Source: a virus. From it: DNA of 25,854 nucleotides. Shown here piece by piece: positions 4,427-25,854 of the stretch. The notes below the pieces were generated by a model. That model was given only the letters and a program-made list of their open reading frames with translations, did no database searches and was not told where the DNA came from. Within the stretch, counting starts at the first letter, position 1. Each line of letters starts with the position of its first letter. The translations under genes were made by a program, and so were the position numbers. The stretch spans positions 1-25,854 of the IMG/VR virus record IMGVR_UViG_3300015263_000383; one strand, written 5' to 3'.

Positions 4427-5094
4427 AACCGAAGTTCCTTACGCCTAACCGCATCACCCAGAAACGGGCAGACAGGCTTTTGACGAAGGAGCCTGACACA
4501 ATCCGATGGATTGATAATATGTCGGGCATCCTGTACGACATTGGGGCTAATGTCGGGACATATTCAATCTATGCGGGCCTTCGCGGAATCACCGTATACG
4601 CCTTCGAGCCGGAGGCAAGCAATTACGCCCTGCTGAATGAGAACATCAAGAATAACAATCTGGACAACGTGCTGGCGTATTGCCTTGCGTTGTCTGACAG
4701 GCATGAATACGACTCTCTTTACCTGTCTACGACAGAGGTAGGCGGTTCCCTTCACGCATTTGGCGAGAAGCTGGATTACAAGTTACAGCACTTCAACCCT
4801 GTTTTCCGGCAGGGATGCATGTCCGTAACGCTGGATGAAATCAATCTTCCCAAGCCAGACCATATCAAGATCGACGTAGACGGTTTCGAGCACCTTGTTG
4901 TCGCTGGCGGGATGGGCAAGATCATGGACGCACAATCTGTCCTGATCGAGATTAACCATAATCTCAAGGAACATGAGCAGATCATAGATATCCTCGTTGA
5001 GCTTGGTTTCACGGTAAACCAAAGGGAAGCGGAAGAAGCTACGAGAAAGCATGGCCCCATGACCGGGGTTGGCAACGTGATCTTCCGCAAATGA
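4423..5094 (+). CDS. FkbM family SAM-dependent methyltransferase
   Basis: This 223-aa protein carries SAM motif I as YDIGANVGTYSIYAG (residues 38-52), the acidic post-I residue in YAFEPEASNY, and the FkbM-type core PDHIKIDVDGFEH. FkbM enzymes O-methylate hydroxyls of sugars or polyketides, so methylation of a sugar in the cluster product is the natural guess. The start is TTG at 4423, overlapping the previous stop (TTGA). It is backed by a strong GGAGG at 4414-4418, four bases upstream. It ends in an ATGA overlap with gmd. Confidence 0.85.
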   Translation: MKPKFLTPNRITQKRADRLLTKEPDTIRWIDNMSGILYDIGANVGTYSIYAGLRGITVYAFEPEASNYALLNENIKNNNLDNVLAYCLALSDRHEYDSLYLSTTEVGGSLHAFGEKLDYKLQHFNPVFRQGCMSVTLDEINLPKPDHIKIDVDGFEHLVVAGGMGKIMDAQSVLIEINHNLKEHEQIIDILVELGFTVNQREAEEATRKHGPMTGVGNVIFRK

Positions 5095-6017: not shown

Positions 6018-7089
6018 TTTTCCCACGGCAACCTCGACATGGGGCGAGGAAGAACGAGACGCCATCATCAGGGTCCTGGATTCAGGACGCATGACGATGG
6101 GCGAGAAAACAGAGGAATTCGAGGAAGCCTACGCCAAGTACGTAGGCACCCGTTATTGCGTGGCCGTCAACTCCGGGTCATCTGCAAACCTGTTGATGGT
6201 GGCGGTATACACGCTTCTTCATGGCCCCGGAACCGTTATTGTTCCAGCAATAGCGTGGGCCACTTCTTATGCGCCTTTCCAGCAATACGGCTGGAAGTTG
6301 AAGTTTGTCGATATTGACTGCAACACGCTGAACTATGACATTGGTGCGCTGAATGCCGTCTATGAGGTAGGCGACCTTATCCTTGCCGTCAACCTGCTCG
6401 GCAACCCAAACGACTTTGACGGGTTCCCTTCGGACGATGTTCTGGAGGATAACTGCGAGGCGATGGGTGCAACCTACATGGGGCAGGACTGCGGATCGTT
6501 CGGCCTGATGGCCTCCCACTCCACGTTCTTCTCCCATCATATGTGTACGATGGAAGGCGGGATGGTCACTACTGATGACCAGCTCCTATACGAGATGCTT
6601 GTCAGCGTTCGTAGCCACGGGTGGACGAGGCACTTCAAGGAAGGGAACGTGCATGGAGTAAAGCCGGAGAAGTTCACGTTCATCTACCCCGGATACAACG
6701 TGCGCCCGACAGAGATACAGTGTGCCATTGGAATCGAGCAGTTGAAGAAACTACCCGCTTTCGTGGAGCAGCGCCACAAGAACTACGAGTCGTTCAAGGA
6801 ATACGCCGCCTCGCAAGGATGGGGGTTCCAGCTTGAGGTGGACGGTGGGTATTCGTCAGCCTTCGGGTGCGCCCTGTTTTCAGACAAGATCGAGGCGATC
6901 AAGTGCTATTTCGACCTGAACGGCATTGACTACCGCCCGATAATGACCGGCAACTTCACCAAGTCGCCGTCCATCAAGTATTACCACTACGAGACATACG
7001 GAAGTCTACCCAACGCAAATTGGGTGGAGAGAAACGGGATCTTCGTCGGGAATCACCACTTCCCGGTTGACTGGAGTGTTCTAGGGTGA
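5998..7089 (+). CDS. ColD-like GDP-4-keto-6-deoxymannose 3-dehydratase (DegT/DnrJ/EryC1 fold)
   Basis: This 363-aa protein has the DegT/DnrJ/EryC1 PLP fold, with NSGSSANL near residue 58 and the conserved EDNCEAMGA block near 150. At the place of the usual Schiff-base lysine it has His180-His181 in FFSHHMCTMEGGMV. Loss of that lysine to histidine is the hallmark of 3-dehydratases such as ColD. These use PLP and glutamate to deoxygenate C3 of GDP-4-keto-6-deoxymannose, the product of the adjacent gmd. True aminotransferases such as perosamine synthase keep the lysine. The start is TTG at 5998, 20 bases inside gmd with a G-rich sequence upstream. The next usable start would remove conserved residues. 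Confidence 0.8.
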   Translation: MSANPVSFPTATSTWGEEERDAIIRVLDSGRMTMGEKTEEFEEAYAKYVGTRYCVAVNSGSSANLLMVAVYTLLHGPGTVIVPAIAWATSYAPFQQYGWKLKFVDIDCNTLNYDIGALNAVYEVGDLILAVNLLGNPNDFDGFPSDDVLEDNCEAMGATYMGQDCGSFGLMASHSTFFSHHMCTMEGGMVTTDDQLLYEMLVSVRSHGWTRHFKEGNVHGVKPEKFTFIYPGYNVRPTEIQCAIGIEQLKKLPAFVEQRHKNYESFKEYAASQGWGFQLEVDGGYSSAFGCALFSDKIEAIKCYFDLNGIDYRPIMTGNFTKSPSIKYYHYETYGSLPNANWVERNGIFVGNHHFPVDWSVLG

Positions 7090-7232
7090 ATTTCCGCAGG
7101 ACCATAGAAGTCATCCTCGACATGAAGATGACGAGGCCAAGACTAATCAGGCTGCTGCGTTATCTGGACAAGGCCGATACGCGGTCCAGGATTGCCAAAG
7201 AGAAACAAAAACTGACGACCAAGAGGCGTTGA
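7086..7232 (+). CDS. Small basic hypothetical protein, 48 aa
   Basis: GTG at 7086 overlaps the previous TGA (GTGA), and the frame runs 48 codons to TGA at 7230-7232, directly abutting the next GTG. About a third of residues are Lys or Arg, with a hydrophobic helical core (RLIRLLRYLDKA) and a strongly basic tail. No cysteines are present. It could be a nucleic-acid-binding or regulatory peptide, or a substrate of the radical SAM enzyme that follows. The sequence alone cannot decide. Confidence 0.6.
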   Translation: MNFRRTIEVILDMKMTRPRLIRLLRYLDKADTRSRIAKEKQKLTTKRR

Positions 7233-8180
7233 GTGATTACAGACAGGATTGATGCAATAACCGGAATCACACCGGAATACATGAAGTCCGTACTGCCCGC
7301 ACCCAAGTCGGTAAAGATCGAACTCACGGGGAAGTGCAACTATCGTTGCGGCTTCTGTGCGCTACGCACGCGAGAGAAGCAGCCGAAGGAGGATATGGAC
7401 TTCGGGCTGTTCCAGCGTATCACCAAGGAAATGCGCGAAGCGGGGGTGGAGGAAATCGGGGTGTTCTACCTCGGTGAATCGTTCATGGCCCCCGACCTTC
7501 TGGTGAAGGCCATCTCGTACCTGAAAGACGAACTCAAGTTCCCGTATGTGTTCCTTACAACGAACGGGAGCATCGCCTACCCGCATATAGTAAGAAAGTG
7601 CTTTGATGCAGGGCTTGATTCCCTCAAGTTCTCCATCAACGCATCGAACGACAGTCAGTTCAGGGAAGTCATGGGCGTGAAGCCCGAGCTGTACCATCAG
7701 GCCGTCGCCAATCTACGCGCCGCCCGGTTCATTCGTGACGAAGGCGGGTTTAGTTGCGGAATCTATGCCTCATCCATCAAGTACGATGGTAGCCAGCAGG
7801 CCGAGATGGAGGAGCTGCTGAAAGAATACGTCCTGCCGTATGTGGACCAGCACTACTGGTTGCCCCTGTATTCGATGGGTTCCGTCGCTACGCAGCGCGA
7901 AGCAGAGCTTGGTTACAGGCCAACCGCAGGGAATCAAGGCCGTCTTGAGATGATGCGAAAGCCGCTCCCCTGCTGGTCTGCCTTCACTGAGGGCCATGTT
8001 CGCGCAGACGGTGGCTTGAGCCTCTGTTGCTTTGACGCAGACGGAAGGTTCGTGGTGGGCGACCTCACGAAAGAGTCGTTCATGGACGCATGGAACTCCG
8101 TTGCGTTCCAGATGATAAGGAAAGCGCATCTCGCGGAGGATTTGACCGGGACAGTCTGTCAGGACTGCGTGGCCTACTGA
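7233..8180 (+). CDS. Radical SAM enzyme with SPASM-like C-terminus
   Basis: This 315-aa protein has the radical SAM cluster motif CNYRCGFC (Cys35, Cys39, Cys42) binding a [4Fe-4S] cluster that cleaves SAM. Downstream come a YLGES strand, a TTNGS motif and a typical partial TIM barrel. The C-terminus has further cysteines (247, 265, 266, 309, 312), with SLCCFDADG and a GDL..ESFMDAWNS segment. That pattern is seen in SPASM or twitch domains carrying auxiliary Fe-S clusters. Such enzymes modify peptides, sugars or cofactors; the substrate here is unknown. It starts at GTG 7233, abutting the upstream stop, and ends TGATG with the next gene. Confidence 0.85.
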   Translation: MITDRIDAITGITPEYMKSVLPAPKSVKIELTGKCNYRCGFCALRTREKQPKEDMDFGLFQRITKEMREAGVEEIGVFYLGESFMAPDLLVKAISYLKDELKFPYVFLTTNGSIAYPHIVRKCFDAGLDSLKFSINASNDSQFREVMGVKPELYHQAVANLRAARFIRDEGGFSCGIYASSIKYDGSQQAEMEELLKEYVLPYVDQHYWLPLYSMGSVATQREAELGYRPTAGNQGRLEMMRKPLPCWSAFTEGHVRADGGLSLCCFDADGRFVVGDLTKESFMDAWNSVAFQMIRKAHLAEDLTGTVCQDCVAY

Positions 8181-8860
8181 TGATACGCTGGTTCATCGGC
8201 TACGACCCCGTTGAGGCGGGGACATGGTACACGCTGGCGCACAGCCTCCACCGCAACTCGTCCATGCCCATTTCGGTGACGCCGGTATCATTGGCTAACC
8301 TTGATGGGATCTTGACTAGGGAGCGTCATCCGTTGCAAAGCAACGATTTCGCGTTCTCGCGCTTCCTCGTTCCGTGGATGTGCAACTTCGATGGTTGGGC
8401 GGTGTTCACGGACTGCGACATGATCGTTCGTGACGACCCCGCAAAGCTATGGGCATTGAGGGATGAAAAATTCGCCGTCAAGGTCGTCAAACATAATCAC
8501 ATTCCCGCAGAGGAAACCAAGTACCTCGGGAACCAGCAAACCCGCTACTCGCGCAAGAACTGGTCATCTGTCGTCCTATGGAACTGTGCTCACCCTGCTG
8601 TCTCAATGCTTACGCCTGAGTACGTTAATCATGCGGAAGGGCTTGACCTTCACCAGTTCCGGTTCATCAAGGACGAGGAAATAGGCGAACTCCCGAAGGT
8701 GTGGAACCACCTTGTCGGGTATGACAAGTTCAATCCCAAGGCGAAGCTGATCCATTACACGACGGGCGGGCCGTATTTCAGGGAATACGCCAACTGTGAC
8801 TACCATAGCGATTGGTTCACCGAGAACGCCCTGATGAACCATATTAACCAGAAGAAATGA
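8180..8860 (+). CDS. GT8-like (GT-A) glycosyltransferase
   Basis: This 226-aa protein has a GT-A core. It opens with IRWFIGYDPVEAGTWYTLAH, and then FSRFLVPWMCNFDGWAVFTD leads to the metal-binding DxD at Asp78 and Asp80 (TDCDMIVRDDP). A C-terminal HYTTGGPYF carries the His and Gly residues that contact the diphosphate in GT8-type enzymes. ATG at 8180 shares one base with the upstream stop (TGATG). An upstream in-frame start at 8090 would lie within the radical SAM gene and adds no conserved residues, so it was not used. This is the last cluster gene and overlaps the terminase start by ATGA. Confidence 0.75.
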   Translation: MIRWFIGYDPVEAGTWYTLAHSLHRNSSMPISVTPVSLANLDGILTRERHPLQSNDFAFSRFLVPWMCNFDGWAVFTDCDMIVRDDPAKLWALRDEKFAVKVVKHNHIPAEETKYLGNQQTRYSRKNWSSVVLWNCAHPAVSMLTPEYVNHAEGLDLHQFRFIKDEEIGELPKVWNHLVGYDKFNPKAKLIHYTTGGPYFREYANCDYHSDWFTENALMNHINQKK

Positions 8861-10305
8861 CCGACCTGGAAGAAGCGGCACGACTCGTTGCAGAACTTGA
8901 GACATACAAAAAGACACACCAGCTCAGATATTACGCGCCCTACGACTACCAGAAGGCTTTTCACAATGCGAAAGGTCACAAGACGGATAGACCGGCTCGC
9001 CAGAAAGCACTTATGGCGGCCAATCAGGTCGGCAAAACGACTTGTGGGGCTTACGAGGTGGCTTTCCATCTGACGGGACAGTATCCCTCATGGTGGGAAG
9101 GAACGAAGTTCACCAAGGCTAACGAATGGCTCGTTGCCTCCACCACGAACGAAACCACCCGCGACCGTTGCCAGAAAGACCTGTTCGGGGATCCTGTAGA
9201 CGACAAGTCAATCGGCACCGGTGCTGTCCCCCTGGATTGCATTGGTGAGAGGATAAGGAAGCCCGGAGTCCCGAACGCCTACGACTCCGTGATGGTCAAG
9301 CACGTTTCCGGTGGGTGGTCGAAGGTCGGGTTCAGGGCATACGAGCAGGGGCCAAAGAAGTTCATGGGTTCCCGCCTCACCGGGGGCTACTGGGCCGACG
9401 AGGAGCCACCGGCAGACATTAACTCGCAGCTTATCCGTGGCCTGTTCGCAACGAACGGCATAGGTCTTCTCACGTTCACGCCGGAAGAAGGCATTACAGA
9501 GGTCGTCAGTCAGTTCATGGATGACCTACAGGAAGGTCAGGCGTTGCAACGTGCAACGTGGGACGACGCACCGCACATGACGCCTGAGCGAAGGGCGATG
9601 GCCCTTGCCGGTATTCCTGCCCATGAGCGCGACATGCGCTCCAAGGGCGAGCCGCTGGTTGGGTCAGGGCTCATCTTCCCCGTCCCGCAGGAAGTATATT
9701 CGGTTGACCCGTTCGAGATCCCCGCTCACTGGGCGAGAATCAACGGGCTTGATTTCGGTTGGGACCACCCGTTCGCTTGTGCAAACATAGCGGTTGATCG
9801 GGAATCCGATACCGTCTACGTCTATGACGGCTACCGTGAATCACGCGCCTTGCCACTCATCCATGTTCAGGCAATCAAGAAGAACGGCGACTGGATTCCC
9901 TGCGCGTGGCCGCATGACGGATTGAAGGCCGACCCGAAATCAGGGCAGATCATCGCGGATATGTACCGCGACTACGGCGTTAATATGTGGAACGTCCCGT
10001 TCACCAACCCGCCGCCTCCTGGCATCGAGGAAGGCAAGGGCGGTAATGGCGTTGAGGCCGGAATCTTCCAGATGCTTGAGATGATGGAAACCAACCGCTT
10101 CAAGGTATTCAAGACGGTGAAATACTGGTGGGAGGAAGTAGGCCGGTATCACCGAAAGAATGTAAACGGGAAGTCTCAGATCGTAGCATTGAATGACGAC
10201 TTTATATCCGCAGTCCGGTACGCGGTGATGTTCAGAAGGCACGCACAAACAAAAACAGTTAAACAGCCTGTCTACAAGGCACCGCAGGGGATAAGGAACT
10301 GGTAA
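8857..10305 (+). CDS. terL: Terminase large subunit
   Basis: This 482-aa protein is the ATPase and nuclease motor that packages phage DNA into the prohead. The N-terminal ATPase domain has a Walker A variant, MAANQVGKT (Lys60), and a Walker B, GGYWADEEPP (Asp181, Glu182). The RNase H-like nuclease domain starts with NGLDFGWDHPFA (Asp299) and continues with the conserved PHDG and a final LNDDFISAVRYAVM. EVAFHLTGQYPSWW after Walker A resembles P22-like and other podovirus terminases. No small terminase subunit is visible in the window. The ATG overlaps the upstream stop (ATGA). Confidence 0.93.
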   Translation: MTDLEEAARLVAELETYKKTHQLRYYAPYDYQKAFHNAKGHKTDRPARQKALMAANQVGKTTCGAYEVAFHLTGQYPSWWEGTKFTKANEWLVASTTNETTRDRCQKDLFGDPVDDKSIGTGAVPLDCIGERIRKPGVPNAYDSVMVKHVSGGWSKVGFRAYEQGPKKFMGSRLTGGYWADEEPPADINSQLIRGLFATNGIGLLTFTPEEGITEVVSQFMDDLQEGQALQRATWDDAPHMTPERRAMALAGIPAHERDMRSKGEPLVGSGLIFPVPQEVYSVDPFEIPAHWARINGLDFGWDHPFACANIAVDRESDTVYVYDGYRESRALPLIHVQAIKKNGDWIPCAWPHDGLKADPKSGQIIADMYRDYGVNMWNVPFTNPPPPGIEEGKGGNGVEAGIFQMLEMMETNRFKVFKTVKYWWEEVGRYHRKNVNGKSQIVALNDDFISAVRYAVMFRRHAQTKTVKQPVYKAPQGIRNW

Positions 10306-17963: not shown

Positions 17964-19204
17964 TGGCTGGACTATACGGAAGTGTAAAGCAACCTACTCT
18001 GCGCGAGGGCTCAGTAAAGGGCAACACTTGGGCAGATGACATTGACAAGCTGGATGCAGATGAATGGCGCCTGCCGGGATCAACGCTTCTACCGCAGCGA
18101 GATGGTAACGAGATACAGGCGAATATCCTGGCAATCATGCAGGGACAGCACGACTACGACGGCAAGGGTGCGGAGCGCGTCCAGAAGTTGATGAAGCGCA
18201 ACCCCTACTCTGCCTCCATGTTCGCGCAAGCCGCTGCTCAGTATGACGCCGTGAAGCGGCAATCTGCCAGCAGAGCCGAAACTGTCGGGAACTACATTCG
18301 TCCTGCAAAGGAGTTTACTGGCGAAGGTGAGGGTCTTGGTTTCATGCCGGTTGGCGGCATCCTGCCAGAAAAGAGAAATCCACAGGGTCTTGTCGATGAA
18401 TTGGTAAGGCAGGGCGATATGGCCGGTGCCAAGGAGATTTCTGCCCTCTACGGTGTGAAGCAGCCAGTCAAGAATCCAATGTCGCTATCAAGTGTCCATC
18501 TTGGCGCTGCTATGGAAAACCCGGAGGCGTATGATCCACTTGGGTTGGTCGATAAACTCGGCGTAGACGGAGCAAGAGATTTTTATAAGAAGGGTTACAA
18601 CAATGCCAAGTCACTTGAGCGAGTAACCGGCCCGTCAGGAACCACGGAGCTTTCTGAGAGAACAGGGGCGAAGGGGAGGACCGATTTCAAGATAGTCCAC
18701 GATGATGCAAGGAAGATTATTGAGGATCATGCAAAGTTGCAGACCCTCCAATCCGGCATGGACGAGCTTGATAAACTAATTGAAAAGGACGAGAGTTCCG
18801 TAAAAGATGCCGTTGGATATTGGAGGAATACGACATTATCGAATTGGGTAAAGTCTGATAAAGCAAAGGAAGCCGTTGCTCAAATATCTAAGATCAAGGC
18901 AGAGGTTATCAGGAAGAACGCCGGTCTTACACAGACCGCTGCCGAACTTGAGCGTGTTACTGAGATGCTTGCATCTAGCGCACAGTTTAGCGCCGAGGAT
19001 TTTATAAAGGCGTTTAGGCTTTTGCAGAACACATACGCTACAGAATACAGGATGTTGTTCAACAGGGCCGGAGCAGACGCAAAAGATATTGCCGCAAAGA
19101 GAATCGGGGTTGACCCCGATAATACTCCGTGGGAAACAAGAAGGAAAAACAAGAAACCATCATCCGGCGATATTGGCGGTGGATGGAAGGTAAAGGTTAA
19201 ATGA
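17963..19204 (+). CDS. Internal virion protein, 413 aa
   Basis: This 413-aa, mostly helical, charged protein has coiled-coil segments near residues 245-330 (DELDKLIEKDESSVKDAV and ISKIKAEVIRKNAG). The lysine-rich C-terminus includes TRRKNKKPSSGD. It has no recognised enzyme motif, signal or transmembrane segment. The location among internal proteins suggests a component of the ejection machinery in the capsid core. Family assignment is by position only. Confidence 0.55.
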   Translation: MAGLYGSVKQPTLREGSVKGNTWADDIDKLDADEWRLPGSTLLPQRDGNEIQANILAIMQGQHDYDGKGAERVQKLMKRNPYSASMFAQAAAQYDAVKRQSASRAETVGNYIRPAKEFTGEGEGLGFMPVGGILPEKRNPQGLVDELVRQGDMAGAKEISALYGVKQPVKNPMSLSSVHLGAAMENPEAYDPLGLVDKLGVDGARDFYKKGYNNAKSLERVTGPSGTTELSERTGAKGRTDFKIVHDDARKIIEDHAKLQTLQSGMDELDKLIEKDESSVKDAVGYWRNTTLSNWVKSDKAKEAVAQISKIKAEVIRKNAGLTQTAAELERVTEMLASSAQFSAEDFIKAFRLLQNTYATEYRMLFNRAGADAKDIAAKRIGVDPDNTPWETRRKNKKPSSGDIGGGWKVKVK

Positions 19205-21312
19205 AAACTTATGTGTTCACTTCCCCAGATGGAAAAGAATACGAAATAGAAGGCCCAGACGGATCTACCGAGCAAGAGGCTTTTGCAAAACTCCAGGAAC
19301 ATCTTGGTCAGCCTAAAGAACAGAAGAAGTCTTACGTCGAGGGGTTAAAGGACTTCGGCAACATGGCGCTAGAGCACATGAATCCGCTCAATGCGCCGAG
19401 GAATCTTGAGGCGATTGCTGCTGGCCTTGCGTCAGGCACAAGGAAGGTCGGCGCTGGAATCGGTGGTGCCGTTGCAGAATACAACGAGGCTATGGGCGTC
19501 GTCCCGCCCGGAACGGCAAAGGCTTTTAGCCAGAGTGTTCAGTCAGACCTTGACGAAACCAGGGGCGTATTCGGCGTATCTCCGGTTACCAAGGCGCTCT
19601 ATGGCGGTGCCGAGACTGTTGGGCAAGCTGCCCCGATGGTGGCGACCGGAGGTCCGGTTGGCGCACTCGGAAGAACCGCCGTAGGCAGCATGTGGGGTCT
19701 GCTCGATTACCAGCCTCCTGACGCACAGTTCAGTCGCGTACAGAAGGCCGCCATGTTCGGTGGCGTGTCTCTTGCGGCCCCTGTTGTAATGGAAGGTGCG
19801 ATTGGGCTTGCGAAGGTTGGCAAGGGGTTGGCACAAAAGGCGTACCGGAATATGACCGGAGCACCGGACCCCTGGCGTCCAATGTCTGAGGCGTTTGCTC
19901 CGCTTACAAGACGGCTCACTGGCGTGAATGATGCCATCTCTGGCCCGCCCACGCCACAGACAAGATCGCTTGCCGAATACGATGATGTGAACTTGCAGGC
20001 TCAAAAGCTGTTTGGCAGGGAGGCGGAAGCGCCATTGTCGGCCCAGATGGGGTCAAAGCGTGCTGCTTCCGCAGAAGCAGGCGTGATGGGGAGCGCACTT
20101 TATGTTGATAAGGCGTCTAACGAAAAGACAAGGATGATAGAGAACGCCTTTAGTCTTGCCGATGATGCGGCTACGGCGCTTCGTACCGGAAAGGTAAGCG
20201 AGGTTCGTGCTGGCAAGATGCTTGCCTCTGCCCAGAGGAACGCCGAGACTGCCGCTCTTTCACTTGCTGACAGGCAATACAAAATTGATATTGCGCCCGT
20301 AAAAACAGCTCTTGGAAAGACAAAGGTTATAGGTAACGAAAACCAGCTTAAAGTGTTGAAGGAGATTGTTGACGAGAATCTGGGGAACATCAAGGATATT
20401 GAAGGGAACGCGGTACGCTTGGCAAAGCGATTCACGAATGATGGGAACCTTGATGTTGATGGATTTATCCTAAGACGCTCACTGTTCTCTAGGTATTCTA
20501 AAAAAGGTGGGCTTCTTGGCATACAGAATCCAGAGCTTGCTAGGCAGGCGGCATACAAAATGTCAAAGGCGGCAGAAGCAGATTTCGCTGCTGCGGTTGA
20601 CAGGTATGTAATTGATGACGGAGTAAAGGAGGCCTTTCAGGTCGCCACCAAAACCTATGGAAAGAATATGTCCAAGGTTGGTGATCTTGAGAACTCCGTA
20701 TTCGGGAAACTTCTCGGAAAAGGTCCGACTACGTTCACCGAGTTTGCCGCCAAAGCCCAGAAGATGACCCCAGAGCAGTATCGTGTTTCCATGAGTGCGT
20801 TAAGAAAGGTGAGTCCAAACATAGACAAGCGAATGGGGCGTTTCATCATGGATGAAGCGAAGAAGGCTTCTGAGGTTGGATCAGAGGCCATGTCAACCGA
20901 GGCTTCTAATTCTGCAACGAAATATTGGGATTATCTCAAGGAGAACGACAAGTTTCTGGCCTCGTTCCCGGAGAGGTCAAGGAAGCAGGTTGAGGTAGTG
21001 CTGGACAATATGCACAGGCTGGCTAATAAATCGGCCAGCGCCGGTGGTGGAGGGGCATCGACACCGCAGGGAGCAATAGAGGCTCCTGCCGCGGCTGCTG
21101 GAAGTATGAGCGTTCCGTTTGTAATCAAAGCCCTTATCAGGTTCGGCTATGGCCCTATTATGCTTGACTCGCTCTACACCGCATCTGGTAGAAAGATGTT
21201 GCTCAACGTCACCAAGGGAGTTCTCGATGATGTAAACCCGCAGTTGTACCAGAGGGCTTTTGCGGAACTCATGGAATATCAAAAGAAGTCACAAGAAAAG
21301 GTACAGGAATAA
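19201..21312 (+). CDS. Large internal virion/ejection protein, 703 aa
   Basis: This 703-aa protein begins with YVFTSPDGKEYEIEGPDGST and then EQEAFAKLQEHLG. This short N-terminal module recurs at the start of many phage internal and ejection proteins. Residues about 70-200 are Gly/Ala-rich and moderately hydrophobic, with possible membrane-inserting helices. The middle is long, helical and charged, and the C-terminus has a hydrophobic patch (VPFVIKALIRFGYG). No lysozyme or transglycosylase active site was seen. It probably forms a channel or scaffold for genome delivery. It overlaps the previous stop (ATGA) and abuts the fibre gene. Confidence 0.6.
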   Translation: MKTYVFTSPDGKEYEIEGPDGSTEQEAFAKLQEHLGQPKEQKKSYVEGLKDFGNMALEHMNPLNAPRNLEAIAAGLASGTRKVGAGIGGAVAEYNEAMGVVPPGTAKAFSQSVQSDLDETRGVFGVSPVTKALYGGAETVGQAAPMVATGGPVGALGRTAVGSMWGLLDYQPPDAQFSRVQKAAMFGGVSLAAPVVMEGAIGLAKVGKGLAQKAYRNMTGAPDPWRPMSEAFAPLTRRLTGVNDAISGPPTPQTRSLAEYDDVNLQAQKLFGREAEAPLSAQMGSKRAASAEAGVMGSALYVDKASNEKTRMIENAFSLADDAATALRTGKVSEVRAGKMLASAQRNAETAALSLADRQYKIDIAPVKTALGKTKVIGNENQLKVLKEIVDENLGNIKDIEGNAVRLAKRFTNDGNLDVDGFILRRSLFSRYSKKGGLLGIQNPELARQAAYKMSKAAEADFAAAVDRYVIDDGVKEAFQVATKTYGKNMSKVGDLENSVFGKLLGKGPTTFTEFAAKAQKMTPEQYRVSMSALRKVSPNIDKRMGRFIMDEAKKASEVGSEAMSTEASNSATKYWDYLKENDKFLASFPERSRKQVEVVLDNMHRLANKSASAGGGGASTPQGAIEAPAAAAGSMSVPFVIKALIRFGYGPIMLDSLYTASGRKMLLNVTKGVLDDVNPQLYQRAFAELMEYQKKSQEKVQE

Positions 21313-22863
21313 ATGGGAACCAAATACAGCAGTAACGCATCATCTGGCTACAACGCTACCCCTCCTGACGACGATGGTACGGTATCCGAGGCCAACAAGG
21401 TCAAGTGGTCAACCATCAAGACCAAGCTATCCGACCCGCTCAAGACCTACGTTGATACCATCAACTCTGAGTTGGCTACCCATTTTGATACCGGCCCGAC
21501 TGCACTAAGCACCAACACCACGCTTGCGGCAAGCCATCACAACCAGATCATCCAGGGGTCTAGCGCCATCACGCTGACGCTCACGGACGCATCTACCCTC
21601 GGTGCGGGATGGTATTGCTGGATCAAGAACAACGATTCAGCCAACACCATCACGGTTGCCCGCGCAACGGCATCCGATACGTTCGACTCCACCACGGCAG
21701 ACTACTCCCTCCCACCGTTTGAAGCCGTCATGGTGGCCGTCAACGCCGCTGCCAACGGGTTCTACAAGGTAACTGCCGGGTATCAGGAGGCGGGACTTAT
21801 CGGCAAGGCTCCAAAGAGCGTAGCCGCTGCCGCCTCGATGGATATTGTATCGTCCACATCCGGCCTCATAGACGTTACCTCGGCTGCATCTGGAACGTCC
21901 ATCTCCTCGTTTACCACGGCATCTTCCGGCGTGTTGAGGCGTCTGCTATTCAATACGGCACTCAACGTAAACCACAACGCAACCTCCATGATTGTCCCCG
22001 GAGGCTCAAACATCCCGGTCGAGACAAACGATAGTGCCCTTGTCAGGTCGGAAGGGGCCGGTAACTGGCGCGTCCTGAACCTGTCGAGGGCAGACGGAAC
22101 CCCCGCCTCTCGTTATGAAGGGCCATCCGTCGCCTCTGCCTCGGATTGCGACATCTGGGCTACTGGCGGTGATACCGTTCATGTCACCGGAACGACGACT
22201 ATTACTGACTGGGGAACGGCACCGAGGGCCGGTGCCTTCAAGCGTGTCATCTTCGACGGTGCCCTGACGCTCACCTATAACGCTACCACGAACGACATTG
22301 ACGGCGGGGCAGACGTAACGACTGCAGCAAACGATGAGTGCATTGTCTACGCCGAGAGTGCGTCTGCTTACCGGGTGAAGAACTACATACGGGCAAGCGG
22401 GAAGCCTCTCAACTCGATTGTCTCGCCAAGTGCAGCCACATCCTTGTCCGGCGGTAGCACCACTGTCACCGGAATCCCGTCATGGGCCACAAGGGTCACG
22501 GTCGTGGTGTGGGGGGCGTCACATAATAGTATTAGCACACCAAGTCTGGGGTTGCGCCTTGGGTATTCAGGTGGTGTCGAGGCAACCGGGTACGCATCTG
22601 CCGCAAGCACAGGTAACTCTACGACAGAGTTCCATATTGCCGATTCTATTTCTTCTTCTGCGTCAGTCTACGGTATCGCTACCATTTTCAAGGTGCCTGG
22701 GACTAATCAGTGGGTCTGTAGTTCGACAATGAACGATGGTTCCACAGCTAGGTATACTCAGTCAGGGGCAAAGACTGTCTCCGGCGGGGCTTTGGACAGG
22801 GTGCAATTACTAGTGTCTACTGATTCATTCAACTCCGGAACAATGACAGTGAGTTGGGAATAA
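21313..22863 (+). CDS. Tail fibre / receptor-binding protein with tandem beta-domains
   Basis: This 516-aa Ser/Thr/Ala/Gly-rich protein is built largely from beta-strands. Residues 194-262 and 293-363 are two copies of one domain. Each has an RR or KR turn, a hydrophobic strand, an Asn-rich turn with NAT, a GG-x-(N/D) turn and a final (R)ASG/RADG. Residues about 66-155 resemble the same pattern more loosely. The C-terminal domain (about 375-516) has TVTGIPSWATRVTVVVWG and an LDRVQLLVSTDSFNSGTM ending, which is found at the tips of many phage tail fibres. It likely recognises the host surface. Confidence 0.75.
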   Translation: MGTKYSSNASSGYNATPPDDDGTVSEANKVKWSTIKTKLSDPLKTYVDTINSELATHFDTGPTALSTNTTLAASHHNQIIQGSSAITLTLTDASTLGAGWYCWIKNNDSANTITVARATASDTFDSTTADYSLPPFEAVMVAVNAAANGFYKVTAGYQEAGLIGKAPKSVAAAASMDIVSSTSGLIDVTSAASGTSISSFTTASSGVLRRLLFNTALNVNHNATSMIVPGGSNIPVETNDSALVRSEGAGNWRVLNLSRADGTPASRYEGPSVASASDCDIWATGGDTVHVTGTTTITDWGTAPRAGAFKRVIFDGALTLTYNATTNDIDGGADVTTAANDECIVYAESASAYRVKNYIRASGKPLNSIVSPSAATSLSGGSTTVTGIPSWATRVTVVVWGASHNSISTPSLGLRLGYSGGVEATGYASAASTGNSTTEFHIADSISSSASVYGIATIFKVPGTNQWVCSSTMNDGSTARYTQSGAKTVSGGALDRVQLLVSTDSFNSGTMTVSWE

Positions 22864-23102
22864 TGGACTGGCACACGGCATTTAATCTGGCCTTTGCTGG
22901 CCTCTCGGCGGTGATGGGGTTCATCATCAAGGTGTTGTGGGACGCGATCAATACACTTCGTCGGGATCTTGGCGACCTCGAACGCTCCATCAAGGATAAC
23001 TACGTCCGTAGAGATGACTTCCGTGATACCATGAGGGCGATGTTCGAGAAGCTGGACCGTATCGAAGGTAAACTAGACGGAAAGATGGACAAGCATACAT
23101 GA
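22863..23102 (+). CDS. Small membrane protein with coiled coil, lysis region (holin candidate)
   Basis: This 79-aa protein has one N-terminal transmembrane helix, about residues 6-24 (AFNLAFAGLSAVMGFIIKVL). A charged coiled coil follows (LRRDLGDLERSIKDNYVRRD). Similar short TM plus coiled-coil proteins lie beside lysis genes in many phages. ATG 22863 shares one base with the fibre stop (TAATG) and was chosen over an in-frame TTG nine bases earlier. It overlaps the next gene by ATGA. It may be a holin or an accessory lysis protein. Confidence 0.6.
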   Translation: MDWHTAFNLAFAGLSAVMGFIIKVLWDAINTLRRDLGDLERSIKDNYVRRDDFRDTMRAMFEKLDRIEGKLDGKMDKHT

Positions 23103-23512
23103 GACTAACCGTAGTCCGTGACCCAAAGCCCAGTGCAACACCGGGGTTCCTCCAAGTAGACGGAAAGTTTTTCTGCTATACCCTTGAGGACGAGGAACGT
23201 GGCATAACCGCCGAGGACTGTTCCGGCAAGGTGTACGGCAAGACCTGTATCCCCAGAGGTCTATATCAGGTAAGGCTCACCTACTCCAGTCGGTTCAGGA
23301 TTATCACGCCTGAGCTGCTGGACGTTCCTTGCTTCCAGTATATCCGCATCCATCCGGGCAACACCACGGAGGACACGGAGGGTTGCTTGTTGGTCGGTAT
23401 GCACCAAGATGGCAACACCGTAACAGCTTCACGGGCGGCTTTCGAGAACCTTATGGAAGTATTGAAGCCGCTTGCGAAGTTCGATATTCCTATCGAGATA
23501 GAGTTCTTATAA
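23099..23512 (+). CDS. DUF5675 family protein, possible lysis role
   Basis: This 137-aa protein matches the DUF5675 layout. It begins with a beta-rich LTVVRDPKPSATPGFLQVDG, then FCYTLEDEERG, then GKTCIPRGLYQVRLTYSSRF. The hallmark is IRIHPGNTTEDTEGCLLVGM. The His-Pro-Gly-Asn and Gly-Cys elements resemble the active-site region of L,D-transpeptidase-like folds, though no catalytic activity is established for the family. It lies in the lysis region where an endolysin would be expected. No other muralytic gene is visible. No signal sequence is present, so export would need a holin-made lesion. Confidence 0.8.
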   Translation: MRLTVVRDPKPSATPGFLQVDGKFFCYTLEDEERGITAEDCSGKVYGKTCIPRGLYQVRLTYSSRFRIITPELLDVPCFQYIRIHPGNTTEDTEGCLLVGMHQDGNTVTASRAAFENLMEVLKPLAKFDIPIEIEFL

Positions 23513-23527
23513 ACAATGGAGATGAAA

Positions 23528-23644
23528 ATGAAATATGTAGTTCTTTCGATGTTGATTGCCACTGGTTTGTTTCTTGGCGCTTGCCAGAAGAAGGGTGGCG
23601 GTGAGCCGCTTCCAAACCCGATTCCAACGTTGCCGTCCAAGTAA
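23528..23644 (+). CDS. Small lipoprotein, 38 aa
   Basis: This 38-residue peptide has a classical lipoprotein signal: a short basic start (MKYVV), a hydrophobic core, and the lipobox LGAC with Cys19. A Pro-rich tail follows (GEPLPNPIPTLPSK). ATG 23528 is preferred over the ATGs at 23516 and 23522, because GGAGA (23518-23522) sits five bases upstream of it and gives a cleaner signal peptide. After lipidation and processing only about 20 residues would remain, Pro-rich like the short outer-membrane subunits of some spanins. It overlaps the next reading frame by 44 bases. Confidence 0.65.
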   Translation: MKYVVLSMLIATGLFLGACQKKGGGEPLPNPIPTLPSK

Positions 23645-23741
23645 GGCAGACCTCCTGTGGGGACTGACGATTCTGATAACAGTGATGACGTCGGTCCTCG
23701 CAGGCTACGTGGTCTTGACCTTGTTACTTGGGCTTCCCTGA
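23601..23741 (+). CDS. Small one-TM membrane protein, 46 aa
   Basis: GTG 23601 opens a 46-residue frame nested with the 3' end of the lipoprotein gene. It has a strongly basic N-terminus (MSRFQTRFQRCRPSK), then a long hydrophobic segment (LLWGLTILITVMTSVLAGYV). That arrangement predicts an N-in membrane protein of holin or pinholin size. An AAGAAGG-rich stretch upstream could serve ribosomes. An upstream TTG at 23556 is also in frame but less likely. The TGA overlaps the next ATG (TGATG). Confidence 0.5.
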   Translation: MSRFQTRFQRCRPSKADLLWGLTILITVMTSVLAGYVVLTLLLGLP

Positions 23742-23842
23742 TGCTGGACCAGTGGATTGAACTGGACATGGTGCTTTACGAACAGGAAATAGACTACATG
23801 GATAGTGAGCACAGAAAGGAGAAGAAGAATGGAAAAGGTTAA
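23741..23842 (+). CDS. Small acidic hypothetical protein, 33 aa
   Basis: ATG 23741 overlaps the preceding stop (TGATG), and 33 codons follow to TAA at 23840-23842. The peptide is acidic at first (MLDQWIELDMVLYEQEIDY) and ends in Lys/Glu-rich residues. An in-frame GTG at 23657 would make a longer protein but lies within another gene. It overlaps the next ORF by 14 bases. Function is unknown. Confidence 0.45.
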   Translation: MLDQWIELDMVLYEQEIDYMDSEHRKEKKNGKG

Positions 23843-23984
23843 AGAGGTTCTTGCGAAGGTTGAGTTGTTCCTTATCCTCAAGGCAAAGATGAAGCCCTCG
23901 CAGGCGAAGGCGGCGATGGTTGCTGTACCGGCGTTGGCGCTGCTTGCCGCTTATCATTTCGTGGCAAAGCTGTTCGGAGGTTGA
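23829..23984 (+). CDS. Small membrane protein, 51 aa
   Basis: A 51-codon frame starts at ATG 23829 with a strong AAGGAG (23816-23821) seven bases before it. The N-terminal half is basic and amphipathic (MEKVKEVLAKVELFLILKAK), and the C-terminal half is a hydrophobic helix (AAMVAVPALALLAAYHFVAK). It may insert in the inner membrane and is of holin size. No family is recognised. Confidence 0.6.
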   Translation: MEKVKEVLAKVELFLILKAKMKPSQAKAAMVAVPALALLAAYHFVAKLFGG

Positions 23985-23985
23985 C

Positions 23986-24285
23986 ATGGAGCATGATGTG
24001 GAGAAGAAATACCGCCGGGAAGGCATGAAGAAGGAACTGGATAAGCACAAGAAGGAAACCGGGTACGACGCGGTGAAGGAAGAATACAAGCGCCGCGAGA
24101 AGGAAGCCGCTGACTCCAAGGCGAAGGAGTACGTCGATCTTGCCGAGGAGCACGACGAGGCCGGTGCGCTACCTGTCGAGGAGAAGATTGATCTTGTCAA
24201 GGCAAAGCTGAATGATAGCTGGAAGCACTGGATCCCGCTTGCTGTCCTCGCCGTCATCGCCGCAGCAGTCTATTTCCTGCAATGA
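23986..24285 (+). CDS. Tail-anchored coiled-coil membrane protein, 99 aa
   Basis: This 99-aa protein has a highly charged helical N-terminal part (MEHDVEKKYRREGMKKELDK and following) and a single C-terminal membrane helix, residues 81-98 (WIPLAVLAVIAAAVYFLQ). ATG 23986 has GGAGG at 23976-23980 and lies two bases after the previous stop. An in-frame start at 23920 is inside the previous gene and was rejected. It overlaps the next gene by ATGA. Its role is unknown; a cytoplasmic domain tethered to the membrane in the lysis region suggests a regulator or scaffold of membrane proteins. Confidence 0.65.
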   Translation: MEHDVEKKYRREGMKKELDKHKKETGYDAVKEEYKRREKEAADSKAKEYVDLAEEHDEAGALPVEEKIDLVKAKLNDSWKHWIPLAVLAVIAAAVYFLQ

Positions 24286-24521
24286 ACTTCGGTCTATCAG
24301 ATTCCCGTGGGCAGAAGTCCACGACGCTTACGCTTGTTCTTATTCCGTGGTTCATCCTGTGCGCCAAGTTCCTCGTTGCCGGTGTGAACATCCCCATGCT
24401 CGGTCTGCAACCGGCAATGGGGGCGGCTGAGTTCGGTGGCGGCCTGACCATGCTGCTCGTCATCTGGCTCGGTAGGGAGGGCATGGACAAGGGCGCTATC
24501 AACTTCGGTGGGCAAAAGTAA
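24282..24521 (+). CDS. Two-TM holin-like protein, 79 aa
   Basis: This 79-aa protein has two predicted membrane helices, about residues 15-34 (TLTLVLIPWFILCAKFLVAG) and 51-64 (FGGGLTMLLVIWLG). They are joined by a Gly/Pro-rich loop, and the tail is short and charged (REGMDKGAINFGGQK). Size and topology fit a class II holin or a small phage membrane protein often seen beside spanins. It overlaps the previous stop (ATGA) and the following start (TAATG). Confidence 0.6.
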   Translation: MNFGLSDSRGQKSTTLTLVLIPWFILCAKFLVAGVNIPMLGLQPAMGAAEFGGGLTMLLVIWLGREGMDKGAINFGGQK

Positions 24522-24739
24522 TGGCAGACGTTTGGGAGTTCAAGGAAGCGGCTGACGACACCACACTTTACTCTGACGGAACCAGCGTACCTCACCGGAG
24601 ACAGGTGGTGCTGTTGAACGGCACCCCTGTCGGTGAGATAGAGATCCACATGCACAAGCGGGCAGGCCGGGACAAGGTTACGGACGTTTCGTTTGGGATC
24701 ACGGCCATTGTGTACGGCCCTGCCCCAGGGGGGAACTAG
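24521..24739 (+). CDS. Hypothetical protein, 72 aa
   Basis: This 72-aa soluble, beta-rich protein begins MADVWEFKEAADDTTLYSDG and has RRQVVLLNGTPVGEIEIHMH in the middle. It starts at TAATG with the previous stop and abuts the i-spanin ATG after TAG. No signal or membrane segment is present. Function is not recognised. Confidence 0.6.
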   Translation: MADVWEFKEAADDTTLYSDGTSVPHRRQVVLLNGTPVGEIEIHMHKRAGRDKVTDVSFGITAIVYGPAPGGN

Positions 24740-25027
24740 ATGAAAGCGTACCTTTACGGTGCCGGAGTCCTTGTCATTATCGGCCTGCTGTTGGGGGTGT
24801 TCTACCTCGGCGGGCAGCATGAGAGGCTGAAACGCGCCCAAGCAGAGGCAGACTTCCGGGCAAGGGAGACTGTCCTGCTGGACGAAATCAACAAGAAGAA
24901 GTCGGAGAGAGAGGTAGTTTACCGTGACAAGATCAAAGTCGTGGAGAAAGTGGTCGATGCTTGCCTTGACACCCCTATGCCTGACGCTGTTCGGTTGCAG
25001 CTCAGTGGCGGTAGTAAGGCCAAGTGA
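24740..25027 (+). CDS. Inner-membrane spanin (Rz-like)
   Basis: This 95-aa protein has one N-terminal membrane helix (residues 5-24, LYGAGVLVIIGLLLGVFYLG) followed by a charged coiled coil (HERLKRAQAEADFRARETVL and beyond) in the periplasm. This is the usual i-spanin architecture. Its last 104 bases overlap, in another frame, a lipoprotein gene (24924-25157), which is the classical Rz/Rz1 nested arrangement. Together they would fuse inner and outer membranes at the end of lysis. Confidence 0.75.
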   Translation: MKAYLYGAGVLVIIGLLLGVFYLGGQHERLKRAQAEADFRARETVLLDEINKKKSEREVVYRDKIKVVEKVVDACLDTPMPDAVRLQLSGGSKAK

Positions 25028-25157
25028 AGCCCTGACCCGCGACTGCGACCGTCCCGAACTAAAGGGTAAGACCTATCGGGATGCCATCAAGCTGTCCATA
25101 GAGCAGGACAAGGCTCTGGCGGATTGCACAGACCGGATGCGAGCCATCCGTAAATAA
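24924..25157 (+). CDS. Outer-membrane spanin lipoprotein (Rz1-like)
   Basis: This 77-aa protein is encoded partly inside the i-spanin gene in a different frame. It has a basic start (MTRSKSWRKW), a hydrophobic core and a lipobox ending LFGC, with Cys25 as the acylated residue. A charged periplasmic domain (KTYRDAIKLSIEQDKALADC) follows. GTG 24924 has a GAGAGAGG sequence upstream; an internal ATG at 24957 could also start a shorter signal. The long C-terminal half beyond the overlap is less Pro-rich than lambda Rz1. Confidence 0.75.
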   Translation: MTRSKSWRKWSMLALTPLCLTLFGCSSVAVVRPSEALTRDCDRPELKGKTYRDAIKLSIEQDKALADCTDRMRAIRK

Positions 25158-25166
25158 GGAGCCTGA

Positions 25167-25514
25167 ATGAGAACCCTCAGACTATCAGCCTTTATCCTTC
25201 TGGGGGTGCTCGTACTGCTCCCTGCGGTGTTGCTTCGACCTGTTCGAGCTGATATTGGCCCTCAAGTCATGTGCCAGCAGACGGGCGAGTTCATGGAGGT
25301 CGTCGCCAAGGAACGGGACAAGGGATTGAAGCTGATCGGGGCATTGGACCGGATACAGGCCATGCTCGCTGGTGGCGGGGTAAGCCTTGAATACTTCCCC
25401 CTATCTGTAGCCATCATCCAGGAGGTCTACCGTTCCCCCAAGAAAACCCCCGTCCAACTCAGGAAGGAGTACGAAACCGGGTGCCTAAAGCACTACGGGA
25501 TCGTTGAGATATGA
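25167..25514 (+). CDS. Secreted/periplasmic protein, 115 aa
   Basis: This 115-aa protein has an N-terminal signal peptide (MRTLRLSAFILLGVLVLLPA and beyond) with likely cleavage after VRA near residue 28. The mature part is helical and has two cysteines (36 and 106) near its ends, which could form a disulfide in the periplasm. AAGGAG at 25156-25161 lies five bases before the ATG. A periplasmic lysis accessory or host-directed protein is possible; no family is recognised. Confidence 0.65.
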   Translation: MRTLRLSAFILLGVLVLLPAVLLRPVRADIGPQVMCQQTGEFMEVVAKERDKGLKLIGALDRIQAMLAGGGVSLEYFPLSVAIIQEVYRSPKKTPVQLRKEYETGCLKHYGIVEI

Positions 25515-25606
25515 AATGGTTCAGGATCGAGCCTGACATAGCCCTTTCCCTGCTGGTTGGGGTTATTGTGTTTCTTGCCCTATTGTTTACTGGCATGCTA
25601 GGATGA
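25511..25606 (+). CDS. Single-TM micropeptide, 31 aa
   Basis: ATG 25511 overlaps the previous stop (ATGA), and 31 codons follow to TGA at 25604-25606, which again overlaps the next ATG (ATGA). The peptide is MKWFRIEPDIALS followed by a hydrophobic helix LLVGVIVFLALLFTGMLG. Both overlaps and the clear membrane helix support a real gene. Function is unknown. Confidence 0.6.
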   Translation: MKWFRIEPDIALSLLVGVIVFLALLFTGMLG

Positions 25607-25851
25607 AACTCAAGGTGGTCGAGGTCACGTTCTACGACGTAGAGAACGGGGCTGGCTGGCACGACTGGTCGGCAAAGAGCCTCAAGGAAATAGCGCCTCT
25701 CAAGGCCGCAGGGTATCTGGTGCATCGGGACAATGACTGGCTGGTGTTGGCTTTCACCTACAACCCGTCAGCGAAGGACTGGTGCGGCAGCTTCTCCATT
25801 CCAGCCGGGATGGTGAAGTCTGTAAGGGTAATCAAGACCACGGAGGTCTGA
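25603..25851 (+). CDS. Hypothetical protein, 82 aa
   Basis: This 82-aa soluble protein has aromatic and beta-rich segments (VVEVTFYDVENGAGWHDWSA, DNDWLVLAFTYNPSAKDW). It starts at an ATGA overlap. The final codons carry GGAGG at 25842-25846, followed five bases later by TTG at 25852-25854. The next gene may therefore start at the very end of the window. Function is not recognised. Confidence 0.55.
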   Translation: MKLKVVEVTFYDVENGAGWHDWSAKSLKEIAPLKAAGYLVHRDNDWLVLAFTYNPSAKDWCGSFSIPAGMVKSVRVIKTTEV

Positions 25852-25854
25852 TTG

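Follow-up and report, generated by a model that had tools for sequence, protein, structure and literature searches.

The window analysed here is the whole 25,854-base record of an uncultured virus (IMG/VR record IMGVR_UViG_3300015263_000383), and our subject is the run of 12 plus-strand genes, g1–g12, that occupies positions 22863–25606 directly behind its fibre gene. We conclude with good confidence that this run serves a podovirus of a Gram-negative host as its late lysis module. One of its genes, g2, belongs to the family DUF5675 and is most likely a soluble endolysin, as judged from its fold model, its position in the cassette and the exchange with known lysins in related phages. The evidence on which we draw is the DUF5675 membership and predicted fold of g2, a spanin pair, the gene order, topology signals and the richness of the run in membrane genes. 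The module is most likely ordinary in kind, its unusual features being a cell-wall-cutting enzyme from a family to which Pfam assigns no function and a number of small membrane proteins above that of a basic cassette. Its novelty lies in bringing together a probable DUF5675 lysin, a gene pair built like that of phage N4 but unlike it in sequence, and several accessory genes that could not be traced.

The match of g2 to DUF5675 (PF18925) is strong (E = 7.2e-30; 103.6 bits against a curated cut-off of 26.7). When the window protein was aligned with 39 of the 78 DUF5675 loci from viral contigs, residues G16, E30, Y56, H85 and C96 were invariant in 40 of 40 sequences and G95 was present in at least 90%. 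The AlphaFold2 (AF2) model of g2 has a mean predicted local distance difference test score (pLDDT) of 94. In a second structural comparison (VIA-align, 996 chains), all 39 listed entries have the L,D-transpeptidase (LDT)/L,D-carboxypeptidase fold: 34 carry it in their titles, and the other five, Pgp2 (twice), Csd6, DpaA and Bd1075, are entries that we take to share it. The best match is to Pgp2 (6xj6; Z = 9.8, 108 residues aligned, 2.6 Å). The model thus places g2, by predicted fold, in the L,D-transpeptidase (YkuD) superfamily, whose catalytic motif we take to be His...(S/T)xGC. The YkuD Pfam family PF03734 was not matched, PF18925 being the sole Pfam family reported at E <= 1; we therefore class g2 as having the same fold and working like these enzymes and do not file it as a member. 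A search of the PDB with the DUF5675 sequence gave no usable match. The L,D-carboxypeptidases Pgp2 and Csd6 and the amidase DpaA have folds like that predicted for g2 (Z = 9.8, 8.8 and 8.6, respectively), although g2 is smaller than all three, has no signal peptide or YkuD Pfam match and has a shorter His–Cys loop than the Escherichia coli LDTs.

The position of g2 in the cassette is best seen by comparison with a relative (L099, the IMG/VR contig of L026) in which a g1 relative is followed by a GH108 lysozyme, then by one transmembrane (TM) gene and one soluble gene, and finally by a two-TM gene, an Rz-like gene and LysC. The GH108 gene (8e-25) and the g1 relative share four nucleotides (nt), as do DUF5675 and g1 in the window; DUF5675 therefore takes the GH108 place. 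L099 differs from the window in having GH108 and not DUF5675 as its lysin and in having fewer small genes. More widely, DUF5675 was found in one of the 30 relatives' records searched, where it lies directly behind two fibre-type genes. Among ten relatives in which DUF5675 was not found, eight have a post-fibre peptidoglycan-hydrolase domain above the Pfam cut-off (Peptidase_M15, GH24, GH19, glucosaminidase or Tlde1); of the other two, one has an M15/VanY match below the cut-off and one has no match. In L100 (oriented positions 8796–9200) a Tlde1-domain protein (PF10908, 1.3e-8) stands in the lysin place and is a second candidate L,D-transpeptidase-like lysin in the group; its comparison with DUF5675 (hhalign probability 3.4%, P = 0.013, His and Cys motifs aligned) is suggestive only. 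The initial annotation, which had concentrated on membrane-targeted proteins, overlooked this soluble enzyme.

The spanins are identified with confidence. The predicted i-spanin (inner-membrane spanin) g9 has an N-terminal TM segment (residues 5–23; Kyte–Doolittle (KD) score 2.36) followed by a charged tail of 72 amino acids (aa), and it matches the Rz-like spanin family phrog_1026 (E = 0.0014). Its partner g10, the predicted o-spanin (outer-membrane spanin), matches the LysC family PF23793 (49.6 bits against a cut-off of 27) and phrog_456 (E = 1.6e-14). g10 starts at a GTG inside g9 in another frame, overlaps it by 104 nt and extends past its end, which is the arrangement termed 'overlapped', the commonest class in the available text of a survey of 677 phages (228 cases; PMC6139136). 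The lipobox, the family match and the out-of-frame overlap are common to g10 and the LysC-type o-spanin of phage P2, although g10 does not reach the cut-off of the NCBIfam P2_Rz1 equivalog (12 bits versus 27). On sequence grounds, the assignment of g9/g10 as a putative overlapped two-component i-/o-spanin pair is secure.

The first gene of the run also points to lysis. g1 belongs to phrog_462, as indicated by its profile match (E = 2.5e-14), its N-terminal TM segment and a C-terminal motif conserved across eight aligned members. Relatives of g1 were found in 58 phage records (tblastn, E <= 0.05), and in all six of the records opened from the best 20 of these 58 the g1 relative is no more than two annotated genes away from an annotated lysin. 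Kakheti25, a seventh record, was reached through the search with N4 gp62 and its g1 match then checked; its gp1 is 36% identical to g1 and is annotated as a 'member of phage protein family found in lysis cassettes', so that g1 relatives lie in or near annotated lysis genes in seven of the seven phage records opened. The label of phrog_462 is 'lipoprotein', which is probably wrong for g1: a lipobox is absent from it, and its sequence looks like that of an N-terminal TM segment with a charged tail.

The wider setting of the run is that of a tailed-phage genome. Profile searches match the terminase, head–tail adaptor and major head proteins of the window to phage families. The terminase is at most 51% identical to those of annotated phages, which are mostly named for Pseudomonas, Escherichia, Salmonella or Vibrio, and the top-ranked of them is a podovirus from Manatee Spring. 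Ahead of the terminase, positions 2048–8180 of the window contain a block of glycan-type genes in which five of ten scanned proteins have a Pfam match: a GT29-like protein (1.8e-8), an FkbM methyltransferase (6.8e-14), a GDP-mannose 4,6-dehydratase (5e-103), a DegT/DnrJ/EryC1/StrS aminotransferase (8e-51) and a radical SAM/SPASM protein. This block may act on the virion or on sugars of the host surface. The plus strand of the window, the only strand to which the gene caller was applied, is a near-unbroken chain of genes in which the structural genes close with the fibre gene (21313–22863) and a 13th small gene, g13, directly follows g1–g12. Gaps within g1–g13 are at most 12 nt, and many neighbours overlap: fibre/g1 and g7/g8 by 1 nt; g1/g2, g6/g7, g11/g12 and g12/g13 by 4 nt; g4/g5 by 14 nt; and g9/g10 as described above. 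Codon scores lie between 0.02 and 0.34 per codon across g1–g13. A promoter and terminator scan of 19000–25854 found five and eight, respectively, compared with 3.5 and 6.5 in shuffled sequence, which is no signal and does not demonstrate a single transcript; a scan for Rfam families and tRNAs found none.

Hydrophobic segments (a KD score of at least 1.6 over 19 residues) are present in nine of the 12 genes: g1, g3, g5, g6, g7, g9, g10, g11 and g12. If g13 is included, a lipoprotein, signal-peptide or membrane segment is present in nine of 13 genes, compared with a single one of the 25 genes that precede the run in the window (Fisher p = 3.8e-5). Another scale, using free-energy values with our own cut-offs, returned the same nine genes at the looser cut-off and eight at the stricter (g5 being dropped), with one of 25 upstream at both. 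Resampling the upstream codons into genes of equal lengths gave a mean of 0.53 membrane genes with a maximum of 4 (2,000 trials), and random fragments of upstream proteins gave a mean of 0.11 with a maximum of 2. The membrane-gene nest is far beyond chance, because the resampled controls never exceed four membrane genes. A TM segment in a spurious frame is not rare, being present in 15 of 142 antisense open reading frames (ORFs) of 30–140 aa. All topology calls were made from hydrophobicity and charge. The initial annotation had described about ten consecutive membrane-targeted genes, many under 60 codons. The nest itself is real and contains the single-TM, two-TM, tail-anchored, signal-peptide and lipoprotein genes that were named, but it comprises nine membrane genes of 12, split by the soluble genes g2, g4 and g8, and just three genes fall below 60 codons (42, 51 and 31 aa).

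The same annotation took the surplus of membrane genes as a sign of extra functions, a view that is weakened by the relatives. Stretches behind the terminase were taken from 14 relatives' records, and the post-fibre run was readable in ten of these and in one annotated phage; L094 and L096, which contain the fibre start only, and L093 and L099, which gave no fibre match, were left out of the counts, L099 being read separately. For each relative we judged by eye where the late run ends, and counted post-fibre genes of up to 200 aa and pre-fibre genes of any length. Across these 11 relatives, 36 of 76 small post-fibre genes have a TM segment compared with nine of 153 pre-fibre genes, a comparison that is not length-matched and in which some runs are cut by the contig end. 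The highest counts in single relatives are six of ten and seven of 14, so the window, with nine of 12, lies at the high end. A membrane-rich, fast-changing post-fibre run is usual in this phage group. In L090 (oriented positions 2892–5945) there are two fibre-like genes whose N-terminal ends match the window fibre, one at 55% over 154 residues and the other at 55% over 55, which suggests a fibre duplication.

Conservation, which had been proposed as a check, separates the genes into groups. Clear relatives were found for g1, g2, g10 and g13, the profile matches of g9 are weak and those of g11 borderline, and none were found for g6 in the phage records or for g7 in those records and in viral_contigs. 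The nearest relative of the window (L002, terminase 94% identical) stops before the cassette, and no close relative covering the cassette was found. Searches of viral_contigs with the fibre protein, the i-spanin, g11 and g7 returned no close cassette relative, including no close relative of g9 or g11 themselves, and the search with g13 returned only an already known contig. A terminase scan of genome_contigs gave 55 loci, of which the best (L199, 63%) ends too early and the other 54 are at 52% identity or less.

Two adjacent genes, g6 and g7, are the candidates for the hole-forming step. g6 has an 80-aa N-terminal domain containing 20 Lys/Arg and 23 Asp/Glu residues, followed by a C-terminal tail anchor at residues 81–99. 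g7, one gene ahead of the i-spanin g9, has TM segments at residues 17–35 and 45–63 and an excess of Lys/Arg over Asp/Glu on both tails; the two-TM call made earlier for this gene holds firmly for the first segment (2.16) and less so for the second (1.54). This architecture recalls phage N4. In the available text of a preprint (PMC12642591), N4 gp63 is a tail-anchored pinholin with a cytoplasmic helical domain and gp62, which has two TM segments and both ends inside, is a lysis regulator. N4 gp63 (110 aa) also has its TM segment at residues 81–99 behind an 80-residue N-terminal domain like that of g6, and in the order gp63/gp62/gp61/gp60/gp60a, as in the window, the tail-anchored protein is followed by the two-TM protein, with the spanins further on. 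N4 differs, as far as the preprint text goes, in having a signal-anchor-release (SAR) muramidase placed after gp62 and embedded spanins, whereas in the window g8 intervenes before the spanins. Topology and order thus agree with the gp62/gp63 pair and sequence homology does not.

Two of the 11 relatives have a tail-anchored protein ahead of the lysin, of 117 aa in L101 and of 89 aa in L097. The whole N4 order is present in L097, where the tail-anchored gene is followed by a gene for a 97-aa membrane protein, then by the GH19 lysin and by an Rz-like gene that weakly matches g9. Elsewhere, in the accessible parts of the respective papers, a 61-aa protein of Campylobacter phage F352 with the same topology as g6 is a putative antiholin (PMC7692668), and phage P1 combines LydA, LydC and LydD, one of several known cases of multiple holin-like genes in one phage (PMC9025707). 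By analogy, g6 and g7 may work like tail-anchored plus two-TM lysis pairs, of which we do not file them as members. The earlier suggestion that holins, antiholins, spanins and regulators lie among these genes has therefore fared well, with confidently identified spanins and credible holin and regulator candidates.

The mechanism that we infer from these features is as follows. g2 would probably be a soluble cytoplasmic endolysin with an L,D-transpeptidase fold and Cys96/His85 that cuts stem peptides. Cutting the mDAP–D-Ala bond (mDAP, meso-diaminopimelic acid) of a donor stem opens a 4-3 cross-link, and on peptidoglycan chemistry the simplest target of g2 would be the mDAP3-D-Ala4 bond, so that 4-3 cross-links would be opened too. 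As it has no TM segment or signal peptide, g2 would need a holin. A hole-forming holin would release it, the best candidate being the two-TM protein g7, with g6 as a partner, antiholin or alternative holin; these assignments to the pair are only somewhat favoured over others. g7 is preferred as the hole former since g2 is soluble and a pinholin alone would be insufficient. g1 plausibly tunes the timing of lysis, and g9/g10 would almost certainly fuse the inner and outer membranes. The remaining genes g3, g5, g8, g11 and g12 would be accessory.

Neighbourhoods of DUF5675 in other viral contigs are consistent with a lysis role in part. From the 78 loci, L179 was dropped (31 residues matched) and nine were not recovered by the gene caller, leaving 68, which form 24 clusters at 60%. 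With one locus per cluster, TM genes occupy 30 of 66 positions at -1, +1 and +2 and ten of 89 positions further off. Among 53 scanned neighbours there are matches, few of each, to phrog_3427, phrog_199, phrog_689, PF11351, PF05105 (holins), XhlA and Rz-like spanins. The phrog_2252 'endolysin' matched by two neighbours was considered as a second lysin and not counted, as both proteins also match a family of dATP/dGTP phosphohydrolases. In Curvibacter phage PCA1 both genes flanking the DUF5675 gene are without a Pfam match. In the lineage formed by L160, L164, L165, L174, L175, L177 and L180 the family lies among tail genes, with a GH24 lysozyme in L160 and L174; the fold may thus have a second use that is related to the virion. 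The openly licensed literature that we found assigns, in its available text, no lysis role to DUF5675, and we do not claim novelty for one; in one paper the ORF next to a DUF5675 ORF is described as a TM-helix protein.

Several observations weigh against the lysis module as proposed. For the enzyme, the hhalign comparison of DUF5675 with the E. coli LDTs is not significant (P = 0.16), with His85 and Cys96 in register nonetheless; the His-to-Cys spacing is shorter (ten residues between them compared with 15 in three E. coli enzymes); and Foldseek alone gave no PDB match to the DUF5675 model below E = 0.001. The lysin of the relatives is anywhere from the first to the eighth gene behind the first fibre gene, so that, L099 excepted, its place is shared only loosely. 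The near and far positions of the neighbour comparison were picked after the unclustered table had been viewed, and holins and spanins account for only six family matches from the 53 neighbours (with 25 of the 32 families listed). The family is not always an endolysin: in at least one lineage it is found between large tail genes, and a GH24 lysozyme is present as well in two of the 20 records with DUF5675. For the holin candidates, pairwise BLASTP found no link between g6 and gp63 and E = 1.4 for g7 and gp62 (compared in its annotated 87-aa form, the preprint using 109 aa), tblastn of phage records found no relatives of g6 or g7, and viral_contigs gave no relative of g7. Moreover, N4 gp63 is a pinholin, and the release of a soluble enzyme is not to be expected from such a protein.

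There are other explanations. DUF5675 could be a virion-associated or accessory enzyme that processes peptidoglycan or fibres, with the true endolysin outside the contig. The tail-gene lineage (for example L160, L174 and L175, two such records having the GH24 lysozyme) is in line with this, as are the position of the window gene soon after the fibre and the linear 25.9 kb record, several relatives' records being 40–43 kb and leaving room for a lysin elsewhere. We nevertheless consider it unlikely, as DUF5675 lies between g1, of a lysis-cassette family, and the spanins; GH108 occupies its exact place in L099; and other relatives have classical lysins behind the fibre. Moreover, searches of 20 chosen DUF5675 records for three lysin families found PF00959 absent from 18 and PF13539 and PF01510 absent from all, although these records may be fragments. 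It is likewise improbable that g6/g7 is a true N4-type pinholin/regulator pair mediating lysis inhibition. Such a pair would explain the shared order, the 80-residue domain and TM position of gp63, the ends of g7, both predicted inside, and the full N4 order in L097, but there is no sequence similarity to N4 (with gp62 in its 87-aa form), the window lysin lacks a SAR domain, so a pinholin alone would not work, and a two-TM gene alone is common, given that KL1, Kakheti25 and UF_RH5 all have two-TM holins and that gp62 distantly matches holins of this type (E = 5e-3).

A further possibility, to which we give little weight, is that g3, g5, g11 and g12 are superinfection-exclusion or envelope-protection proteins and not lysis proteins. 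g3 is a lone tiny lipoprotein apart from the spanins. For g11, a predicted four-helix protein with a signal peptide, proteins of similar predicted structure exist in phages, and a Klebsiella phage has a relative on the opposite strand beside lysis genes. In phage T4, according to the part of PMC12642591 available, lysis inhibition is coupled to exclusion proteins of the membrane and periplasm. Against this, all four genes lie within a tight run of lysis genes, no match to a superinfection-exclusion family was seen, and a scan with defence models (PADLOC), which covered the module proteins other than g4, g9 and g10, matched only g1, as a weak DpdH hit. It is also doubtful that the smallest ORFs g3, g4 and g12 are untranslated: they are short and no family relatives were found for them, and g4 starts with GTG, yet their codon scores are positive (0.11–0.20 per codon), they are preceded by short Shine–Dalgarno-like motifs and g12 has 4-nt overlaps.

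Within this module the accessory genes (Table 1) vary in how far they can be placed. Family libraries, the only resource searched for them, gave no convincing match for g3 (nothing better than E = 0.2), g4, g5, g8 or g12. An overlapping frame, g3b, was considered as a tenth membrane gene and rejected, since its strong TM segment is accompanied by codon usage below background. The match of g11 to phrog_2315 is weak (E = 0.0099 in a library scan and 1.8e-4 in a one-genome search), and its single-sequence AF2 model has a pLDDT of 81. In BFVD the best match to this model has E = 1.5e-3, with 21 rows at a probability of at least 0.95 and none below E = 0.001; ten of these 21 best rows are named, all for phages of Gram-negative hosts and three as 'Lipoprotein'. 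The look-alikes are small periplasmic-looking four-helix proteins in phages of Pseudomonas, Burkholderia, Salmonella, Stenotrophomonas, Sphaerotilus and others. The Klebsiella phage relative has a signal peptide and adjoins lysozyme and holin genes on the opposite strand. The PDB gave nothing at Z >= 5, the best sequence match (E = 0.21) is unconvincing, and Rap1a-type immunity found no support. Gene ep3_009 of E. coli phage ep3 was considered as a counterpart and not used: it has a signal peptide but lies outside the ep3 lysis genes, and its only link is a length equal to that of one BFVD hit. g11 may be a lysis regulator acting as a periplasmic timing factor, with envelope protection as a real alternative, and it is the one gene that is still a candidate for superinfection exclusion. 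g13 is 45–46% identical to a protein in L089/L191, where it too lies behind a signal-peptide gene.

Table 1. Genes and alternative frame of the proposed lysis module (window coordinates).
Feature	Position	Strand	Description
g1	22863..23102	+	79 aa; TM 7–25 and charged, probably coiled-coil tail; phrog_462; probable lysis regulator
g2	23099..23512	+	137 aa; DUF5675; predicted L,D-transpeptidase fold with H85 and C96; endolysin proposed, soluble
g3	23516..23644	+	42 aa; predicted tiny lipoprotein; lipobox LGAC, h-region; mature form ~20 aa, proline-rich
g4	23657..23842	+	61 aa if started at GTG, or shorter; soluble acidic protein; least certain gene; codon score 0.19
g3b	23556..23741	+	alternative overlapping frame; TM 2.31; codon score -0.08; probably not a gene
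g5	23829..23984	+	51 aa; C-terminal tail anchor (TM 28–46), N-terminus inside by charge; AGGAG before start
g6	23986..24285	+	99 aa; 80-aa charged N-terminal domain and tail anchor 81–99; holin or holin-partner candidate
g7	24282..24521	+	79 aa; hairpin of two TMs, N- and C-termini predicted inside; candidate class II holin
g8	24521..24739	+	72 aa; soluble; no TM, no family match
g9	24740..25027	+	95 aa; predicted i-spanin (Rz-like); N-terminal TM, charged tail
g10	24924..25157	+	77 aa from GTG; predicted o-spanin lipoprotein; lipobox LFGC, Cys25
g11	25167..25514	+	115 aa; signal peptide and predicted periplasmic four-helix protein
g12	25511..25606	+	31 aa; single TM, KD 2.70; 4-nt overlaps with g11 and g13
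g13	25603..25851	+	82 aa; soluble; closes module; conserved in relative L089/L191

A joint reading of these elements, which we regard as speculative and rather unlikely in its entirety, would be that DUF5675 serves many viral lineages as a compact soluble endolysin cutting the mDAP–D-Ala bond, released here by an N4-like g6 and g7 pair of independent origin or diverged beyond recognition, while g3, g5, g11 and g12 form a lysis-inhibition sensor linking the envelope state or superinfection to timing. If the main reading is right, a DUF-only domain of many environmental and gut phages would gain a testable role as a lysis enzyme with a mutable catalytic cysteine, and there would be a second candidate system, without N4 sequence similarity, for the control of lysis timing by a tail-anchored and a two-TM protein. 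For annotators, the post-fibre run in this podovirus group is a place where lysins of at least six other Pfam types are swapped while the membrane-rich surround is kept.

The closest annotated parallels are the lysis cassettes of the Burkholderia phage KL1 and of Septimatrevirus (Pseudomonas phages Kakheti25 and UF_RH5). KL1 and Kakheti25 have a five-gene core of a phrog_462-type protein, a two-TM holin, an endolysin, Rz and Rz1. KL1 and Septimatrevirus share with the window the phrog_462-type protein, the two-TM gene, the endolysin and the i-spanin overlapped by an o-spanin, one spanin being annotated in UF_RH5. The window differs in that its endolysin is DUF5675 and is placed before the two-TM gene, and in that seven extra small genes are inserted or appended (g3, g4, g5, g6, g8, g11 and g12); as the initial annotation held, it has more genes than a minimal lysis cassette such as the five-gene core. 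For the enzyme itself the nearest annotated counterpart is crAss001_30 of a Bacteroides phage, a DUF5675 relative that is 39% identical to g2 and is annotated as an L,D-carboxypeptidase/transpeptidase, so the idea of such an activity is partly precedented. There one gene separates the DUF5675 relative from a 'lysis regulatory protein/holin', while its neighbours otherwise differ from those in the window.

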